Shown here piece by piece: positions 326 to 22,968 of a DNA stretch of 45,676 nt. Source of the DNA: Methanobrevibacter sp. (GTDB lineage Archaea; Methanobacteriota; Methanobacteria; Methanobacteriales; Methanobacteriaceae); NCBI RefSeq assembly GCF_030539555.1, contig NZ_JAUNXX010000010.1:1-45676 (forward strand), given 5' to 3'. The position numbers were made by a program, and so were the translations under genes. The notes under the pieces were generated by a model that did not search any database, had not been told where the DNA came from, and saw nothing but the letters and a program-made list of their open reading frames with translations. Within the stretch, counting starts at the first letter, position 1, and each line of letters starts with the position of its first letter.

Positions 326-1477
326 ATGGCAAGAACATTCACATCTGAATCAGTAACACAAGGACATCCGGACAAGGTTGCAGACATCATCTCAGATGCA
401 ATACTTGACGCCTATATGAAAAGGGATCCGTTTGCACACGTTGCATGCGAGACATGTGTGACTACAGATTACTGTATGGTGTTTGGGGAGGTAACCTCTG
501 AAGCCATAATCACTACAGAAGAAATCGAAAAAATCATTAGGGACACAATCAAGGAAATCGGTTATGATAACCCGGCCCTGAAATTCGATGGCGCCAACTG
601 TGAAGTCATATCCAAACTCCACTCACAGTCTCCCGACATCAAACAGGGTGTTGACGGTGAGGAAACCGGAGCTGGCGACCAGGGTATGATGTTCGGTTTT
701 GCAACCAATGAGACAGATACATTAATGCCTTATCCGATTTACCTTGCAAGAAAGCTTACAAACAAATTAACAGAACTTAGAGAATCCTGTGTGATTCCAT
801 ACTTAAGACCTGACGGCAAGGCACAGGTATCAGTTCACTATGATGATGAGGGTAATGTTGAATATCTTGAAGCGATTGTGGTGTCCACCCAGCATGACGA
901 GTCAGTATCAGACAATCAGGAACAGTTGCACAAGGATATCCGAGAAAAACTCATCAATGAAGTCATTCCTCAGAATCTGATTACAGAAAATACCAAAATC
1001 CACATCAATCCGACAGGCAAGTTTGAAATCGGGGGTCCTCACGGAGATGCAGGTCTGACCGGCCGTAAAATCATCGTTGACACATACGGAGGTTATGCAA
1101 GGCACGGTGGTGGTGCATTTTCAGGAAAAGACTGCACCAAAGTTGACAGAAGCGCATGCTACATGGCAAGACACATTGCAAAAAACATCGTTGCAGCAGG
1201 ACTTGCAGAAAAATGTGAAATACAGCTGTCCTATGCCATTGGAGTTGCAGATCCGACTTCAGTAATGGTTGATACAAAGGGCACTGGCGTGGCAGACCTT
1301 GACTTCGAAAAAATAGTGCGTGACAATTTCAGCTTAACTCCTGATGGAATCATTGAAACTCTTGACTTGAGACATCCGATTTACAAACAGACCGCCAAGT
1401 GTGGGCACTTCGGTATTGAAGGTCTTCCATGGGAGTCAACCGACAAGGCTGAAGACTTAAAAAAATACATCAAATAG
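326..1477 (+). CDS. metK: S-adenosylmethionine synthase, bacterial type
   Basis: The 383-residue protein makes S-adenosylmethionine from methionine and ATP. Visible motifs are GHPDK at residues 13-17 (ATP/phosphate site), GAGDQG at 115-120 (flexible loop and ATP site) and a GGGAFSGKD stretch near residue 260, all typical of the bacterial/eukaryotic MetK family. Length agrees with that family. Most archaea use a different, hardly alignable methionine adenosyltransferase, so this copy looks like a bacterial acquisition. It lies 4 nt after the S-adenosylhomocysteinase stop and is followed by a hairpin terminator. The function call is very secure; the idea of transfer is inference. Confidence 0.96.
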
Positions 1478-1516
1478 AAACTTCACCTGAAGTTTCAACT
1501 CTTTTTTTATTTTTTG
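1477..1516 (+). terminator. Hairpin plus T-tract terminator after metK
   Basis: A perfect 9-nt inverted repeat (GAAACTTCA / TGAAGTTTC, 2-nt centre) at 1477-1496 begins at the last base of the metK stop codon. A run of mostly T follows to about 1516. Position and T-tract fit transcription termination of the ahcY-metK unit. Confidence 0.7.
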
Positions 1517-1767
1517 TCCGGTTTAATCTATATGCTATAATTTAAGAGTTTTGTTTTAATTTTGTACTTAATCCTAATTAAATTGTTGATAAATTATATT
1601 CGCATTTAACTCACCAAGTAGTTAAAATATCTCTCGAAAATTGGATATGCTTGAAAGAATTTTGGAATCGGGATATAGTTTATTATGTTCTCATCAATAT
1701 CAAATTATTAAGATCATCCATCAGCTGATGCCACATTATATATCCTACCAGTTTCAAATAATTAATC
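1517..1767. other. Intergenic region with galU leader
   Basis: This 250-bp AT-rich gap lies between the metK terminator and galU. It holds TATA-like stretches (for example ACATTATATATCC near 1735) that could serve the galU promoter. There is no convincing ribosome-binding site directly before the galU ATG, so galU may have a short leader or be leaderless. A 64-codon frame across the gap has no homology signal or ribosome-binding site. Confidence 0.35.
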
Positions 1768-2607
1768 ATGAAAGCAGTTATCCCGGCAGCAGGTTTCGGA
1801 ACAAGGTTCCTTCCTGCAACCAAATCACAACCTAAAGAAATGCTTCCCGTCTATGACAAGCCGATTATCCAGTATGCAATGGAAGAGGCGGTTGCATCAG
1901 GAATTGACGATATTCTTATCATCACGGGCAGAAACAAGAGATCCATCGAAGACCATTTCGACAAGTCATATGAGCTTGAGCAGACCCTGCAGAAGGCGGG
2001 AAAGGACAGGATCCTAAAGCAGGTGAGAAAAATCACTGACCTTGCTGATGTATGCTACGTCAGGCAAAAAGAACAGGTGGGTCTGGGCGATGCGATACTT
2101 CGGGCGGAAAGGCATATCGGCGATGAGCCTTTTGCAGTTCTTTTGGGAGACACCATCGCAAAGTCAAAAACGCCCTGCACCAGGCAATTGATGGAAATAT
2201 TCAACAAATACCAGAAATCAGTCATTTCACTGAAGACAATTCCAAACACAAGACAGAACAAGTATGGTGTGGTGAAAGCAAGTCCGGTTGAAGACAACAT
2301 CTACAAAATCACCCAACTGGTTGAAAAGCCTCAAAATGAAAACAGAAAATGCCTTGCAATTGTTGGAAGATACGTCCTGACATCAGACATTTTTGATAAA
2401 ATCAGAGAAACCGAGCCCGGTCTCAACAATGAAATCCAGCTTACCGATGCGATTTCAAAGCTTGATGAGGTCTACGGTACTGTCTTTGATGGAAAGACTT
2501 TCAACATTGCAAACCGTTTTGACTGGCTTAAGGCATCAATCGAGTTCGGTCTTGAAACTGATGAGAGGGATGAGCTTATCCAATACATGAAAACCTTCAT
2601 CGGTTAA
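1768..2607 (+). CDS. galU: UTP--glucose-1-phosphate uridylyltransferase
   Basis: The 279-residue protein makes UDP-glucose from UTP and glucose-1-phosphate. The N-terminus carries the nucleotidyltransferase signature GFGTRFLPATKSQPKEMLP (residues 9-27) with the catalytic Arg and Lys, followed by the family pattern PIIQYAMEEAVASGI. Length is as usual for GalU. UDP-glucose feeds surface glycan synthesis; a UDP-glucose 6-dehydrogenase and glycosyltransferase genes lie about 10 kb downstream. The gene stands alone and is convergent with the ATPase at 2678-4117. Confidence 0.95.
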   Translation: MKAVIPAAGFGTRFLPATKSQPKEMLPVYDKPIIQYAMEEAVASGIDDILIITGRNKRSIEDHFDKSYELEQTLQKAGKDRILKQVRKITDLADVCYVRQKEQVGLGDAILRAERHIGDEPFAVLLGDTIAKSKTPCTRQLMEIFNKYQKSVISLKTIPNTRQNKYGVVKASPVEDNIYKITQLVEKPQNENRKCLAIVGRYVLTSDIFDKIRETEPGLNNEIQLTDAISKLDEVYGTVFDGKTFNIANRFDWLKASIEFGLETDERDELIQYMKTFIG

Positions 2608-2677
2608 TCTGGAATGATTTATTTAAACTAAACTAATTAATTTTCCCGCTTGCACTTGTGCATGACCATAACAGATT

Positions 2678-4117
2678 TTACATCAAAGCAAATGTTAAAA
2701 CAGGGATATATAGAATATTCCTCTTGAATTCTATTTTGGATGTCCTGTTGGAAACCAATATTCCATAATCTGCACCATATTTGCTTTTTGCTCTTGTAAG
2801 TTGGCTTTTGGTTTTTTTGCCGATACCAACTTCAATAGGTATGGTTTCATCCAAGTTTTTAATGATGAAGTCAACACCTTTCTTGTTGGAGTCGTAGAAT
2901 AAACCCAATGAGTGTGGGGATTCATAGGACAATCTGTTTAAGGTGGATGCAACCATATTTTCAACAAGCACGGAATAACATTTCTCATGATTCAAGTCAT
3001 ATCGTCCTACACGGTAATTTAACGCTGATTTTATGGAAGGCGATAAAAAGAAATGATGTTTTGGTTTGTTAAGTATTTTACCTGCAGGCCCATATGCGCT
3101 GATGCTGAATATTAGCTGAGATTTTTCCAATGCTTCCAAAATACTGTCGACGGTTCGGACATTAAGATTAAGACTTTGAGCCAGTGATGAGGAGGATGTG
3201 GTTCCTGGCTTTTTGGTAGCCAAATATGAGATTAATCTTAAAATGCTTGCATTGGTATCCTTTTTGAATGATGCAAAATGTTTCAAATCCTCCTGGACAA
3301 TTCTCTCCACCATATCATTTGTCCGCCTATGAGTTGAAATTTCTGAAATGTTTAGTGCATATGGAAAGCTTTGTGAATGGAGGTATTTTTTAAATTCCAA
3401 TTCCGGATCATTATCCAATTGAATTAAATCCTTTTTGATGATGTTTTCACAATCCTTTGCCTCATCAACAGTAGTGGGGTTTAATTTTAAAATCAAATCC
3501 CTGAAATTGTTTTTTGTTAAGTTGACGTTGTGTTTTAAAAGAAGGTATTCCTGAAAACTGCATGGCAGTAACTGCTCTTTTTCAATTCTCCTTGATGCAT
3601 CAACATTAACTTCCAGCCCCAGTGCTGATGAACCTGTAAAAATCATGAAGATGTTGAATGTTTCATTAAAGAGCAGTCTTGCATAATTTGCCCAGTTTTC
3701 ATCCAATTGTGATTCATCAACAAAAAAGAAGATTTTTTTATTCAGTCCTGCAGGAATTGTTTGGTGAATATCCTCCAAATACAAATCAAATACTTCCTTG
3801 ATGCCCACATCATACACGCTTTTTAAATCATGCACGTCCAGGTAGAATATGTTGTCTTCAGGGATGTTTTTCTGTTTTGTCAGATGATTGTATAACTGAT
3901 ATAATATTGTTGTTTTGCCTACTCCTCTCAAACCGGACATCATTATAAAACGATCATAGTACTCTGATTCAGCATCCAAAAAATTATTGCAATGTTTTTT
4001 AAGTGTTATGTATTTCAAGCGTTCATTGTCAATTTCTTCCAAATGGTTGGATGATAATATTCTTGTTTCCCTTTGTTTTGCATGAATGTAGTCAATCAGT
4101 TCCTGTTTGGATGGCAT
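2678..4117 (-). CDS. AAA-type ATP-binding protein (AAA_14/DUF4143 type)
   Basis: A 479-residue P-loop ATPase of the archaeal AAA_14 + DUF4143 family. The Walker A motif GLRGVGKTT is at residues 62-70 and Walker B (FFFVDES) near 130-135. The middle has the family pattern FTGSSALGLEV and a winged-helix-like stretch around 310-350, and the C-terminal DUF4143 part is nuclease-fold-like, with the pattern FYDSNKKGVDFIIK and IPIEVGIGKK (a D...E-K arrangement). Members are common in methanogens in many copies; their role is unknown and often suspected to be defence or mobile-element related. A GAGGG site lies ahead of the ATG. The promoter region contains repeated palindromes (4161-4240). I give no specific substrate. 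Confidence 0.85.
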   Translation of the reverse strand: MPSKQELIDYIHAKQRETRILSSNHLEEIDNERLKYITLKKHCNNFLDAESEYYDRFIMMSGLRGVGKTTILYQLYNHLTKQKNIPEDNIFYLDVHDLKSVYDVGIKEVFDLYLEDIHQTIPAGLNKKIFFFVDESQLDENWANYARLLFNETFNIFMIFTGSSALGLEVNVDASRRIEKEQLLPCSFQEYLLLKHNVNLTKNNFRDLILKLNPTTVDEAKDCENIIKKDLIQLDNDPELEFKKYLHSQSFPYALNISEISTHRRTNDMVERIVQEDLKHFASFKKDTNASILRLISYLATKKPGTTSSSSLAQSLNLNVRTVDSILEALEKSQLIFSISAYGPAGKILNKPKHHFFLSPSIKSALNYRVGRYDLNHEKCYSVLVENMVASTLNRLSYESPHSLGLFYDSNKKGVDFIIKNLDETIPIEVGIGKKTKSQLTRAKSKYGADYGILVSNRTSKIEFKRNILYIPVLTFALM

Positions 4118-17624: not shown

Positions 17625-18185
17625 ATGGCTGATAAAAAGGCTCCTGCAGATGGCTGGCCAGTAATCAGTGGCGACTATGTTGTAGGGGACCCTGAAAGTC
17701 CGGTTGCAGTAACAACCCTTGCTTCTCACATTGAAGCCGAATTGTCCGGAGCTGCAATTGCAGGACCATGTAAGACAGAGAATTTAGGTATAGAAAAAGT
17801 AGTTGCAAACGTAATATCAAACCCGAACATTCGTTTTTTAATCGTAACCGGTGCCGAAGTGCAGGGCCACATCACAGGTCAGAGCATCAAGGCGCTGTAT
17901 GAAAACGGTGCCGATGCGGATAAAAAGAAAATCATCGGAGCAACAGGGGCTATTCCTTTTGTTGAAAACGTGCCTCTTGACGGTATCGAAAGATTCCAGA
18001 ACCAGCTGGAAATCGTTGATTTAATCGATACAGAAGACATAGGCGCAATCCAGTCCAAAATCAATGAATGTGTAGAAAAGGATCCGGGCGCAATCGAAGA
18101 GGATCCGATTGTCATGGAAGTTGATGAGGAAGCCCAGAAGATGGTAATCGTTAAAGGCGCCAAAAAAGACAAAAAAGAGCAATAG
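17625..18185 (+). CDS. mtrA: Tetrahydromethanopterin S-methyltransferase subunit A paralogue, soluble (MtrA2 type)
   Basis: A 186-residue corrinoid-binding MtrA. The sequence [20 protein letters not shown] and the ligand-bearing [13 protein letters not shown] with H82 (the lower axial cobamide ligand in this family) are intact. It stops after a charged tail ([11 protein letters not shown]) and has no C-terminal membrane helix, so it is not the membrane-anchored subunit of the MtrA-H methyltransferase complex. It also stands alone, without the other mtr genes. Such soluble paralogues occur in hydrogenotrophic methanogens; the methyl donor and acceptor are not known. A strong AAAGGAGG site suggests good expression. 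Confidence 0.88.
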
Positions 18186-18529
18186 GCTTCTTTTTTGTTT
18201 TGCTTTTTTTTTATTTTTTTTTCATACACCTGTTTTATGTGATTTTTCACAAAATAATTTTTTTGCACTTTTCTAGAAAAGGTAATATTTATATATGATG
18301 GGGAATATAGTAAGTATTGCATCGGTACAATTTGCATTTTTTAAAAAAGTATATGTAAAAACCGATAAGTATATATAATATTATAACAAAAGTATATGTG
18401 CGGATATGTATTTTTACCAAAAAGATACATAAGAAATATGTTGCATATTTCTAAAAAAGTTGTCACCATTGTTCACATGTTTTATCTTTTGAGGTGAACA
18501 TCAAATAAAAATTTAGGAGAAGTAATAAT
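18186..18529 (+). promoter_or_regulatory. Repeat-rich leader after mtrA and before the 18530 gene
   Basis: T runs at 18190-18225 likely terminate mtrA. Then follow: a 14-bp palindrome CTTTTCTAGAAAAG (18269-18282); a direct repeat AAAAGTATATGT with a downstream CGATA or CGGATA box (18345-18367 and 18388-18406); an 8-bp hairpin GAAATATG-TTG-CATATTTC (18433-18451); and a spaced inverted repeat TGTTCAC ... GTGAACA (18470-18476 with 18494-18500). The density of symmetrical elements in 240 bp suggests operators or a structured leader for the gene at 18530, whose ribosome-binding site (AGGAGA) follows. Confidence 0.5.
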
Positions 18530-18892
18530 ATGAATGGGATAATAAACGACAATAATGTAATCAACTGGTCTGAAAAAGTCAAAAACCTCGACAACAACAT
18601 CCGAAAAGAAATCGGAATCGAAGGTGAATGCGATGCAAAGCACATCCTAATCAAGGTGCAGACAAAAGCTGCCGAATGTATCGAACCTGCATTCATCGTA
18701 GCGGAAGACGATACCTTCCTGGACCTTTTCGTCCTCTCTCCGCAGGGAGCAGGAATCACATCAACAGCTGTTTTGAAATCAAACATCCAAAGCGTTGGCG
18801 TAATCGGAGGGCTTTCAGCAGAAAAAATGGACGTAAGAGAGATACCCGATGACGTGGATGCAATCGAGGACCTTGGAGGTTTATACCAATAA
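18530..18892 (+). CDS. Hypothetical protein
   Basis: A 120-residue soluble acidic protein. Its centre (KHILIKVQTKAAECIEPAFI, LDLFVLSPQGAG, QSVGVIGGLS) is an alternating beta/alpha pattern, and the C-terminus is acidic (DDVDAIEDLGGLYQ). A good site, AGGAGA, precedes the ATG. It follows an unusually elaborate leader, which hints at tight control. No known family was recognised, and I see no membrane segment or Cys pair. Confidence 0.7.
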   Translation: MNGIINDNNVINWSEKVKNLDNNIRKEIGIEGECDAKHILIKVQTKAAECIEPAFIVAEDDTFLDLFVLSPQGAGITSTAVLKSNIQSVGVIGGLSAEKMDVREIPDDVDAIEDLGGLYQ

Positions 18893-19357: not shown

Positions 19358-19921
19358 ATGGGCAAAGTAAAACTTAATGATATTGCGGAAGTCATATCAG
19401 GTCTTTCATATAGGCGTTATGTGGATGACCGTGAAAAAGCATTCGACGTAATTGTTCAAAGGTCAATCAAAAAGGACGGAATTCTGGATGATTTCGAAAA
19501 GATGAAGTTAAAAGAACCGAAATCACACTATTTCACAAAAAAGGGAGACATTCTTATGAAAATGCCCTACCCTTACGATGTTGTCTGCACTGACCGGGAA
19601 GGTCTTGTCGTAAGCGACAGGATTGCAATCATACGTCTCAATGAAGGCTACGACCCGTCTTTTGTAGCGCACCTGCTTACAAATGCCCATGTCAAAAAGC
19701 AGCTTCACGAACTGGGAAGCACAGAAAAAATTCCCCACACTTCCATAAAGGAAATCAAGGAACTTGAACTTGCAATTCCGGATTATGACATACAGGTCAA
19801 ATGCGGCGATCTTTTAAACACCATCAACGAAAAGATCGCCGAGGATTTAAGGGTCGTCGAATACGACCGCAACCTTAAGGAAGGGATTGTGAATAAGGTC
19901 TGGGAGGGATTAGATGGCTAG
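19358..19921 (+). CDS. Type I restriction specificity (HsdS)-like protein, single domain
   Basis: A 187-residue protein with the fold pattern of one target-recognition half of HsdS. The start (KLNDIAEVISGLSYRRY) matches the common entry to an HsdS TRD; the middle has DILMKMPYPYDVVCTDREGLVVSD, and the end has IPHTSIKEIKELELAIPDYDIQVK followed by a helical conserved region. Complete HsdS proteins are about 400 residues with two such halves, so this is a half-size form that might dimerise. It overlaps the HsdM-like gene by 8 bp. No HsdR is present. Confidence 0.75.
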   Translation: MGKVKLNDIAEVISGLSYRRYVDDREKAFDVIVQRSIKKDGILDDFEKMKLKEPKSHYFTKKGDILMKMPYPYDVVCTDREGLVVSDRIAIIRLNEGYDPSFVAHLLTNAHVKKQLHELGSTEKIPHTSIKEIKELELAIPDYDIQVKCGDLLNTINEKIAEDLRVVEYDRNLKEGIVNKVWEGLDG

Positions 19922-21572
19922 GAAAAAATCCCACAACGAAGCAATCCTCAATTATCTGATAAGACAGGCGAGGCGTTCATCCGTTTCAGCCAATGCAAAC
20001 TACCTGATATTATATGCATTTCTTTACAAATACCTCTCGGATAAACTTAAAAATCATCTCCTCCACCAGTTCGGAGGTGACGGTGATGACTTGAAAATAT
20101 TTTATCTCACAGACGAAGGCAAAGCCGAAATCAGGGAAGTTGCCCTGAACGATCTGGGATATTTCATTGAAAGCTATGACGCATACATCGACCACTTCAC
20201 CGGGGATAAGTTTGTTGAGGAATTCATACACCCGGAATTTCTCTCAGCACTTAAAAAGAGCATAGAATTCAGCAGGGACAATCCGTGCAGACAATATTTC
20301 AATTTCATCACCGAAACGCTTGAAAGATATACCAGCTTCTACGGCTATGACGCCGAGCAGGAACTCTTCATCAGCAATTATCTTCTCTCAATTTCCAAAC
20401 TCGATATTGAAGAGGAGGAATTCAGCTTCAGAAGAGTCTATGATTTGATATCCTCTTCAAGGCAAATCCGCCTGACACCGACTCCGGAATACATCACACA
20501 AATTCTTGAAGAGACAGTCACCTCAAAAAAGGACAGTGCTAACAGCATTTACGATCCTTTTTTAAAGGACGCATCCAACCTGTTCAATGTTTCAGGGTAT
20601 TTCAGGGAAAGCAGGATTTATGGAAAGGAAGCAAATAATCTTTACTACTTCTATAGTCTGATTAAGGCTTTCATCCATGAATGTGACTTCAGCAACGTAT
20701 TTCTAAAGTGTGAAGATGCAACAGAGTCCATGGCATATGACGAGGAGCTGTTTGATGTCATAGTCTCAAAGGTCCCGAACAGGTCACGCTTTTTTTCAAA
20801 ATATCATAAAAGCCAGAACCTTGAAGCTCCAAACCCCAACAAAATCGACATTAAAGAGCAGCTGATTTCACAATTGGACTTGTCAGCACTGGGTGAAGAT
20901 GAAGAACTGATTAATGCCTTAAAGATAGTGGAGAAGAAAGTCGAAGCCGTTGAAAAAAACAACATCATGGACTTCAGGGGAGAATATGAAGTCCTCAAAA
21001 ACAGCGAATTTCTCTTCCTGATTAATATGATAAACTGCCTTAAGGAAGACGGGATAATGGCGATTTCACTTTCACAAAACTTCCTCTTTAAAAAGTCCCT
21101 TACTGCGCTCAGGAAGTTTCTGACCTATGAAAACAACTATATAGATACAATCATCTCCCTTCCCGAAGAGTTGGGCAGATCAATAAGGCCTGAGGTAATC
21201 ATCGTATTCAGGAAAAACAAAAACATTGATGATATTCTTTTCATAGATCTCTCAAAGCAGTACAGTGCGGTTTCATCTAAAAGAATCGTGCCTGGAGTAA
21301 TCAGGCGCAATCTGATTCTCGACGATAGGACATTGCTCAGGGTCAGGGATGTTTTAACAAAAAGAAGGGCAATTGACAAGTTCTCTGAAATCATTTCCAT
21401 TGAGGAACTTGAAAAAAATGATTTTAACCTGACTGTTTCAAGATATGTCGACACATTTGACGGGGATTTCATCAGACTCGAAGATTTGAAATCCGAAAAA
21501 AAGGAAATTGATGATAATCTTGATAAGTTAAGTAAAAAAATAGAATCGATGATGAGTGATTTGGATATGTAA
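19914..21572 (+). CDS. HsdM-like N6-adenine methylase-family protein with degenerate active site
   Basis: The 552-residue protein aligns by eye with type I methylase subunits. Residues 1-150 form the helical HsdM N-domain; RLTPTPEYITQIL at 186-198 matches the entry to the methylase domain; YGKEANNLYYFYSLIKA follows; and the end has PEELGRSIRPEVIIVFRKNK and FNLTVSRYVDTF, then a coiled coil. The two essential motifs are lost: the SAM-binding DPxCGxG is DPFLKDASNLF (214-224), and the catalytic NPPF/Y is replaced by SKVPN (285-289). It therefore should not methylate DNA, though the frame is intact. The HsdS-like gene overlaps its start. Confidence 0.8.
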   Translation: MARKKSHNEAILNYLIRQARRSSVSANANYLILYAFLYKYLSDKLKNHLLHQFGGDGDDLKIFYLTDEGKAEIREVALNDLGYFIESYDAYIDHFTGDKFVEEFIHPEFLSALKKSIEFSRDNPCRQYFNFITETLERYTSFYGYDAEQELFISNYLLSISKLDIEEEEFSFRRVYDLISSSRQIRLTPTPEYITQILEETVTSKKDSANSIYDPFLKDASNLFNVSGYFRESRIYGKEANNLYYFYSLIKAFIHECDFSNVFLKCEDATESMAYDEELFDVIVSKVPNRSRFFSKYHKSQNLEAPNPNKIDIKEQLISQLDLSALGEDEELINALKIVEKKVEAVEKNNIMDFRGEYEVLKNSEFLFLINMINCLKEDGIMAISLSQNFLFKKSLTALRKFLTYENNYIDTIISLPEELGRSIRPEVIIVFRKNKNIDDILFIDLSKQYSAVSSKRIVPGVIRRNLILDDRTLLRVRDVLTKRRAIDKFSEIISIEELEKNDFNLTVSRYVDTFDGDFIRLEDLKSEKKEIDDNLDKLSKKIESMMSDLDM

Positions 21573-22502
21573 TCACCCGGTCTCATCAATGCCGTTTTCA
21601 ATCAGGATGTCTTCATCAAAGATTTCCTCTTCCTTTTTGAAGTATGACCAGTGAATGACCTCATCATCATATTTGTAAAGTGTTCCAAGCCCGTAATCAT
21701 TTTCAAATTCAAATCTGGACTCAAGAGCAACGCTCTCTTTTTTTTCAAAGCTTGCCTGTTTGGCATCTGCAATCACGCTTTCTATTTGCTCCATGTTGAT
21801 TGCGAATGTTGTGTTTTCAACCTTATTGTCAATCAGATAGCTGCGCAATATCTTTTCATGATATTCTGCATATATCTGAGGGTTGTAGAATATTTCAAAA
21901 CCTTTTATATCTCCGTTTTGAATTATCAGAACGCCGCTTTGGCCGTCAACAACCTTAAATGCCTTCAGGAACTTGTTGTGATCCACCTTCAGGTTGTCGT
22001 AGCTTTCAGACATTGCACTTGTAGGTGATTTGAATGATGTTTCGACTTCCAGGCAATGGATGGAATCCCAGACTTCGCTTTGGTAGTTGGATGTGTGTCT
22101 GCTTGCAACTTCCTTTGCACGGCGGGTTTTGTAGTTTGCAATGTAATCTGACTGTTTGAATTCGCTTTTGTATGCCCATCTCCCCTGCTCTGTACAGCTG
22201 ACAGGAATGTTCTGGGTCTTTCCCGCACCTATTAGGATTGTACTGTTGACGATACGATTCTGATTTGCTCCAAGGATTTCTTCACCGTCAATTAAAATCA
22301 GCGGTGTGACTGCATTGTTTTTGACTGACACTGTGTTTACGCTGCTTTCATCAAGCTCCTTGACTTCCGCAAGCCCCAGTTCAAGACCTTTTTTCAGGGT
22401 AAGAATATCTGTCCTGTATGAGAGTTTGCTTTTAAGGGGCACCACGACCATGTTTTCATGGCTTTGCGGAGCTAAGATTTCAATATCAATCATCTGAATC
22501 AC
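21573..22502 (-). CDS. ARPP-1 domain protein
   Basis: A 309-residue protein whose core matches the ARPP-1 domain: LILIDGEEILGANQNR at residues 68-83 and VSCTEQGRWAY at 101-111, with strand-rich flanks. This uncharacterised domain is found next to phosphatases and ADP-ribosyl-type enzymes; its function is not established. The C-terminus is acidic. Its first codons overlap the end of the HIRAN gene (ATGATTCAGATGATTGA), so the two are translationally coupled; the second Met (codon 4) is an equally possible start. It meets the HsdM-like gene end to end, with adjacent stop codons. Confidence 0.75.
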   Translation of the reverse strand: MIQMIDIEILAPQSHENMVVVPLKSKLSYRTDILTLKKGLELGLAEVKELDESSVNTVSVKNNAVTPLILIDGEEILGANQNRIVNSTILIGAGKTQNIPVSCTEQGRWAYKSEFKQSDYIANYKTRRAKEVASRHTSNYQSEVWDSIHCLEVETSFKSPTSAMSESYDNLKVDHNKFLKAFKVVDGQSGVLIIQNGDIKGFEIFYNPQIYAEYHEKILRSYLIDNKVENTTFAINMEQIESVIADAKQASFEKKESVALESRFEFENDYGLGTLYKYDDEVIHWSYFKKEEEIFDEDILIENGIDETG

Positions 22503-22869
22503 TTAAATAATGAATGTCGCTTTGAGGATTTTTCATCTCCTCGTTGTATTCTTCACTTGTCAGTATCTTTGCGATTACAGTGTTCTGGGTTATGAATTTC
22601 ACTTTGGCGAAATAAGTATCGTCAATTTTGTCATATACTCTGCCTGAGCTCATTGTTCCCATTGCTACGGTTTGTGTGCTGTTTGCAACATAGCCGACTT
22701 TTCCGAAGTATCTCATTTCGCAGGCTATCGCTTCGTTGTCATATTTGTTTTCAGGCTCTTTAATCAATTTGATTAGGGATTCGAGTTTGAATGGCTTGAG
22801 GCCGTGGAACTTTGAAAATCCGAGCAGTGTGATGTGCATATTTTTTTCAATCCATTGTGAATTTTCCAT
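22486..22869 (-). CDS. HIRAN-like domain protein
   Basis: A 127-residue protein starting at the ATG preceded by AAGGTG; an upstream in-frame ATG (22920) has no such site. Residues 15-63 follow the HIRAN pattern: a G..xxHGL start (GFSKFHGLKPF), the hallmark EPENKYDNEAIA at 38-49 and GKVGYVAN at 56-63. HIRAN domains in eukaryotic HLTF/Rad5 bind DNA 3' ends; stand-alone prokaryotic forms are probably DNA-binding. The C-terminal part is acidic. It forms a two-gene unit with the ARPP-1 gene. Confidence 0.75.
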   Translation of the reverse strand: MENSQWIEKNMHITLLGFSKFHGLKPFKLESLIKLIKEPENKYDNEAIACEMRYFGKVGYVANSTQTVAMGTMSSGRVYDKIDDTYFAKVKFITQNTVIAKILTSEEYNEEMKNPQSDIHYLSDSDD

Positions 22870-22968
22870 TTTTATCACCTTGTGTATATGTTGTGTTTTA
22901 AAAATATTTAAATCTTTCATCAGGCAACTAAGTAAAATTTAAAAAAAAGAAGATTAACAGCAGATAAT

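Follow-up and report, generated by a model that had tools for sequence, protein, structure and literature searches.

The operon and its half-size specificity subunit

The stretch of DNA that we analysed, referred to here as the window, comprises 45,676 nucleotides of a Methanobrevibacter sp. assembly (contig NZ_JAUNXX010000010.1) and carries an operon that ends in a pair of genes (S-M) related to the specificity and modification subunits, HsdS and HsdM, of type I methyltransferases. The genes of the operon are as follows, with distribution and identity given for the orthologous loci described below:

18530..18892 (+): first operon gene, 120 aa, family unknown; in 40/40 loci, 63-84% identity
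18917..19312 (+): optional operon member, 131-aa protein, family unknown; in 14/40 loci
19358..19921 (+): half-size HsdS, 187 aa, with one target-recognition domain (TRD); Methylase_S 2.4e-6; 61-79% identity, 40 loci
19914..21572 (+): HsdM-like protein, 552 aa, methyltransferase motifs lost; N6_Mtase 1.5e-27; predicted HsdM fold (AlphaFold/Foldseek)

A preliminary description of this DNA had placed a half-size HsdS and an overlapping HsdM-like protein at these positions, and both the Pfam matches listed above and the 8 bp overlap of the two open reading frames bear this out. Less can be said of the two upstream genes. The 120-aa protein is predicted to form a helix and five strands (AlphaFold pLDDT 74.5), for which Foldseek returned weak matches to SH3/Sm-like folds and nothing better, and a PDB sequence search found no relative; distant members of its family occur in another genus (L097, L098, L099, L100, L105), in one case (L097) close to a relative of the 131-aa protein, for which a Pfam search gave no match. 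Beside the leader, at 17625-18185 (+), lies a stand-alone gene that we take, from reading its sequence rather than from a family search, to be MtrA-like (methyl-H4MPT:CoM methyltransferase subunit A), and which is conserved near the loci of most carriers. On the other side, an ARPP-1 and HIRAN-like gene pair (21573-22920, -) is convergent with S-M; such a pair is found at 27/40 loci, and also at L088, which lacks S-M, and is followed by PRTase, oxidoreductase and hemC genes, an order scored only where the contig extends far enough.

The 187-aa protein scores 28.3 bits with Pfam Methylase_S (cut-off 22), has one TRD and is matched by the PADLOC type I specificity models at 2.4e-15, which makes it a half-size HsdS. 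Across the family, mean identity is 68% for HsdS and 48% for the HsdM-like protein, so that HsdS is more conserved than its partner, the reverse of canonical pairs (S 45%, M 74%), whose samples were unmatched, S coming from several genera and M from within the genus; three canonical S proteins from the genus are 67-70% identical to one another. Many TRD positions are invariant among 32 HsdS sequences, which suggests a frozen DNA target. Half-size HsdS proteins have been reported to form dimers in many cases and to read symmetric targets (PMC5399793; discussed also in PMC10030836) and, by analogy, we infer the same for the protein encoded in the window.

The HsdM-like protein and its orthologues

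Pfam, NCBIfam, PADLOC and a PDB sequence search all match the HsdM-like protein, its C-terminal part best: the N6_Mtase match falls mainly in residues 360-515, the HsdM structure 3lkd_A is matched at 2.5e-21, and the score with the NCBIfam hsdM equivalog model, 67.6 bits, lies below the cut-off of 242.75 bits. An AlphaFold model built on the family alignment (pLDDT 80.9, pTM 0.79) has HsdM 3lkd as its top solved match in Foldseek (E 1e-20, TM 0.73, target length), and by this prediction the HsdM fold is retained despite the loss of motifs. The N6_Mtase fold and the HsdM domain architecture are both present. The genome from which the window comes yielded no other HsdM of this type; its contig C109 has a weak N6_Mtase match.

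When the protein is aligned by profile with 15 HsdM-type proteins from within the genus, DPFLKDASNLF falls in the columns of the SAM-binding motif I (canonically DPxxGxG) and VSKVPN in those of the catalytic motif IV (canonically (N/D/S)PP(Y/F)), as the preliminary description had read them. It had also asked whether orthologues share the loss, and they do: motif IV is lost in 40/40, and GxG is missing from motif I in 39/40, among them the protein of the window. Relocation of the two motifs to another part of the protein is ruled out by the profile alignment together with a regex scan of the 40 whole proteins, which returned zero matches to [DNS]PP[YFWH] or PP[YF]. No orthologue with intact motifs, which the preliminary description would have counted against itself, was found; the exception in part is L032, whose DPxxGxG-like string (DPFMGDG, by regex, the only such string among the 40) speaks against a methylation-dead protein but is not accompanied by motif IV.

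The remaining pocket has changed as well. Compared with 14 HsdM proteins of the genus that have intact motifs, the 40 orthologues have replaced the catalytic N286 by K (19), R (18), E (2) or H (1), that is by K/R in 37/40 and never keeping N, S219 by D/N in 40/40 and Q238 by K in 40/40. The T of motif X survives in 9/40 and the D of motif III in 16/40, and the Q/E of motif II is eroded; the C-terminal RYVDT (R510-T514), which the preliminary description had noted as kept, is invariant. Because the replacement residues are themselves conserved, this pattern argues for a new constraint on the replaced pocket rather than drift. Judged by its motifs, the M protein does not qualify as an HsdM enzyme, though it has the fold and descent of one, and S-M shares an origin with the type I pairs of half-HsdS and HsdM.

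Full-length orthologues of the HsdM-like protein, 35-66% identical and with no internal stops, occur in 40/67 Methanobrevibacter genomes, one per genome; a search at 1e-30 through 151 genomes of the order recovered no orthologue from any other genus. An alignment-based scan of GTDB species contigs gave 31 loci, all Methanobrevibacter, and a scan of the same contigs with a single HsdM-like sequence as query gave zero matches. The carriers are gut and rumen MAGs, many from goat, deer, buffalo or of other gut origin. Gene order, the 131-aa gene being optional, is fixed in 40/40 loci, and the M tree and nearby core genes give correlated distances (Pearson 0.74), in keeping with vertical descent of the locus. 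Four genomes keep the locus and its first gene without S-M, and their positions in the tree suggest several separate losses. Both S and M are under purifying selection, with dN/dS of 0.05-0.13 for S and 0.065-0.12 for M (about 0.1), values that rest on the closest pairs, most of the remaining pairs being saturated. The checks of synteny and selection proposed in the preliminary description thus came out in its favour. Relatives of S-M were not found in viral contigs, and viral carriage was rejected on this ground; no defence-island markers were seen at the locus.

The closest relative outside the family is another pair of half-S and M genes, L074 (G006:C93, 2585-4663), with an S that is 47% identical and an M that has DPFLGTG in motif I and VPPF in motif IV and has lost the TP of motif X. 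This M may itself be inactive and represent a second inactive lineage. The DNA upstream of L074 has no clear inverted-repeat array, and downstream of the pair lie two small genes and a gene that is presumably purA-like, a label given by reading and not by search.

The leader array and its candidate reader

The preliminary description had mentioned an elaborate leader upstream of the operon, and this leader consists of an array of inverted repeats whose occurrence goes with that of the S-M pair:

18264..18284 (no strand): inverted repeat site 1 (TGCACTTTTCTAGAAAAGGTA); 14/18 consensus match, 14-18/18 in other carriers
~18288-18297: TATA-like box 1; site 1 lies directly upstream
18333..18353 (no strand): inverted repeat site 2 (TGCATTTTTTAAAAAAGTATA); 16/18 match
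18370..18379 (+): TATA-like box 2 (TATATATAAT), aligned with the conserved GTTAAGTTTATATACTAT of other loci; putative promoter element
18407..18429 (no strand): inverted repeat site 3 (TGTATTTTTACCAAAAAGATACA); 17/18 match
18432..18461 (no strand): inverted repeat site 4 (AGAAATATGttgCATATTTCT with an overlapping weak consensus match); perfect 9-bp arms

The consensus of the leaders, TGYATTTTT-n-AAAAATRCA, is repeated around the two TATA-like boxes with a median spacing of 71 bp between sites 1 and 2 and 75 bp between sites 2 and 3 (39 leaders), the spread of these values being bounded by the set distance ranges within which sites 2 and 3 were sought. No window shuffle (0) matches the string of site 3 at 3 mismatches; site 4 is the least conserved of the four and in several leaders appears as a weaker copy about 35 bp past site 3. 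As TATA box 2 is downstream of both site 1 and site 2, these two sites would act as DNA, not RNA, for the box-2 promoter. Just before the ribosome site of the first gene (18463-18500), this and other leaders have a further inverted repeat, CCAC-n-GTGG or CACC-n-GGTG, which is not tied to S-M, since it is kept in L086, where S-M is missing.

Sites matching at least 15/18 positions occur at 9.0 per kb in the leaders and 0.15 per kb in 629 kb of flanking DNA, an enrichment of about 60-fold, and those matching at least 16/18 at 4.5 and 0.014 per kb; leaders contain 2.85 sites each against 0.19 after shuffling, and the control, upstream regions of one other gene (mtrA-like), gave 2 sites in 11 kb. 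As the consensus was derived from S-M leaders, its presence there is partly circular; less so are the uniqueness of exact sites and their absence where S-M is missing. Exact-pattern sites number 19 in the 67 genomes and are confined to the S-M leader, which for two of the sites is cut short by the end of the contig; the four genomes without S-M have either no array or a decayed one, G006 retaining two degenerate copies 69 bp apart. Since the 120-aa gene is kept where the array is gone, and 26/40 loci have no 131-aa gene, S-M is the only product of the operon whose presence follows that of the array. At 2 mismatches, carriers and non-carriers have similar genome-wide counts of the site; with exact sites nowhere else, a wider regulon of the leader site was rejected.

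We consider the best explanation, with a probability of roughly 0.5, to be that S-M is a methylation-dead complex derived from a type I methyltransferase that binds DNA specifically and controls its own operon. In this model, two half-HsdS subunits would pair up, and two HsdM-like subunits, whose bodies would serve as clamp and scaffold in place of an enzyme, would hold them through their conserved C-termini. The resulting M2S2-like complex could then read the inverted repeat, occupy the evenly spaced copies around the two TATA boxes, and repress or tune the operon, repression being the simplest form of control. Motif loss, fixed synteny and low dN/dS all support the repurposed, sequence-specific DNA-binding complex that the preliminary description had proposed. 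Several points weigh against autoregulation: a regulator from another part of the genome might recognise the array, TGYATTTTT arms spread over 19-23 bp are unlike the usual 3-5 bp plus spacer of type I sites, and the genomes that retain the locus without S-M number only four. By recognising a shorter core target, the complex could also act elsewhere in the genome. A broader proposal, that type I S-M genes have given rise to a widespread archaeal DNA-binding regulator, methylation-dead and with a frozen recognition domain, that targets evenly spaced inverted repeats in the promoter of its own genes and perhaps additional positions on the chromosome, is one we hold tentatively and at somewhat less than even odds; if true, a restriction enzyme would have been converted into a transcription or chromatin factor that has no HTH domain.

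A different main role for a dead but DNA-specific S-M complex, such as organising the chromosome, marking or blocking sites, or defending the cell by binding foreign DNA, with the array belonging to a separate regulator, seems to us unlikely, if still worth weighing. The motif loss, the 40 orthologues and the dN/dS values support a dead complex equally under this reading, and a regulon limited to the one locus with exact array sites would be small for a complex that 40 species have kept. Against it stand the loss or decay of the array where S-M is lost, with no other operon product tracking the array, and a locus with neither viral relatives nor marks of a defence island.

Far less probable is that S-M serves as the recognition module of an HsdR acting in trans, giving restriction without modification, a reading for which the presence of an HsdR in the genome would speak. 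No HsdR is encoded at the S-M locus, HsdR matches lying on other contigs or in other places, and the preliminary description was right in this respect; its claim does not extend to the genome, which has an HsdR fragment at 595-3118 of a 3.1-kb contig (L137, G000:C97) that it fills. This HsdR is most probably part of another system, because its close relatives in G010 and G058 adjoin their own HsdM with intact DPCCGSG and NPPF motifs; its own HsdM and HsdS were probably lost at the contig edge. Furthermore, 14/40 carriers have no HsdR match, eight of these 14 being genomes at least 90% complete, and unmodified self sites would get cut. Comparably improbable is that S-M still methylates DNA through an unusual active site: the kept HsdM fold and the DPFMGDG of L032 would allow for this, but motif IV is missing throughout, and motifs X, II and III are eroded too. 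Least probable, and rejected, is a decaying type I relic or pseudogene, for which the fast evolution of M and the apparent losses of S-M could be cited, against 40 intact frames, low dN/dS, invariant residues and a conserved TRD.

Comparison with known systems

Inactive enzymes retained as binders are known from many families. For a genus-wide type I methyltransferase complex with a replaced catalytic centre, or an inactive HsdM acting as a regulator, we found no precedent in the open-access literature. Automatic annotation is likely to label the HsdM-like protein as an active type I methylase, and a dead reading would correct predicted methylomes. The methanogens concerned are relevant to livestock methane.

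The window pair is like type I M2S methyltransferases (HsdM/HsdS; 3lkd, EcoR124I 7bst) in its predicted HsdM fold, its RYVDT and Methylase_S signatures and its adjacent, overlapping S and M genes, and several Methanobacteriaceae type I systems have the same order of half-S followed by M. It differs from them in lacking the catalytic and SAM-binding motifs and an HsdR at the locus, in having a conserved rather than variable S, and in its fixed, apparently vertically inherited position. With the half-size HsdS proteins of type I systems (NgoAV, EcoDXXI and EcoR124I derivatives) it shares a single TRD and the expectation of a dimer that reads a symmetric site, whereas its partner M is without the motifs needed for methylation. 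Profiles of MADS (mad2/MAD5) give distant HsdM/HsdS-like matches to S and M that are far weaker than those of the type I models. Orphan (solitary) methyltransferases are likewise conserved within lineages and without a restriction partner, but they methylate, and S-M, by its motifs, should not. EcoRII and SsoII are dual-function methyltransferases that act as repressors of the genes encoding them; in the case of EcoRII, repression by an inactive enzyme persists provided that its sites carry methylation (PMC12707154). These are type II enzymes with a fused repressor domain, in contrast to the type I subunits of the window, which appear to be naturally dead and in which no HTH domain was found; if S-M binds the leader array, it would be an example of a restriction system turned regulator.
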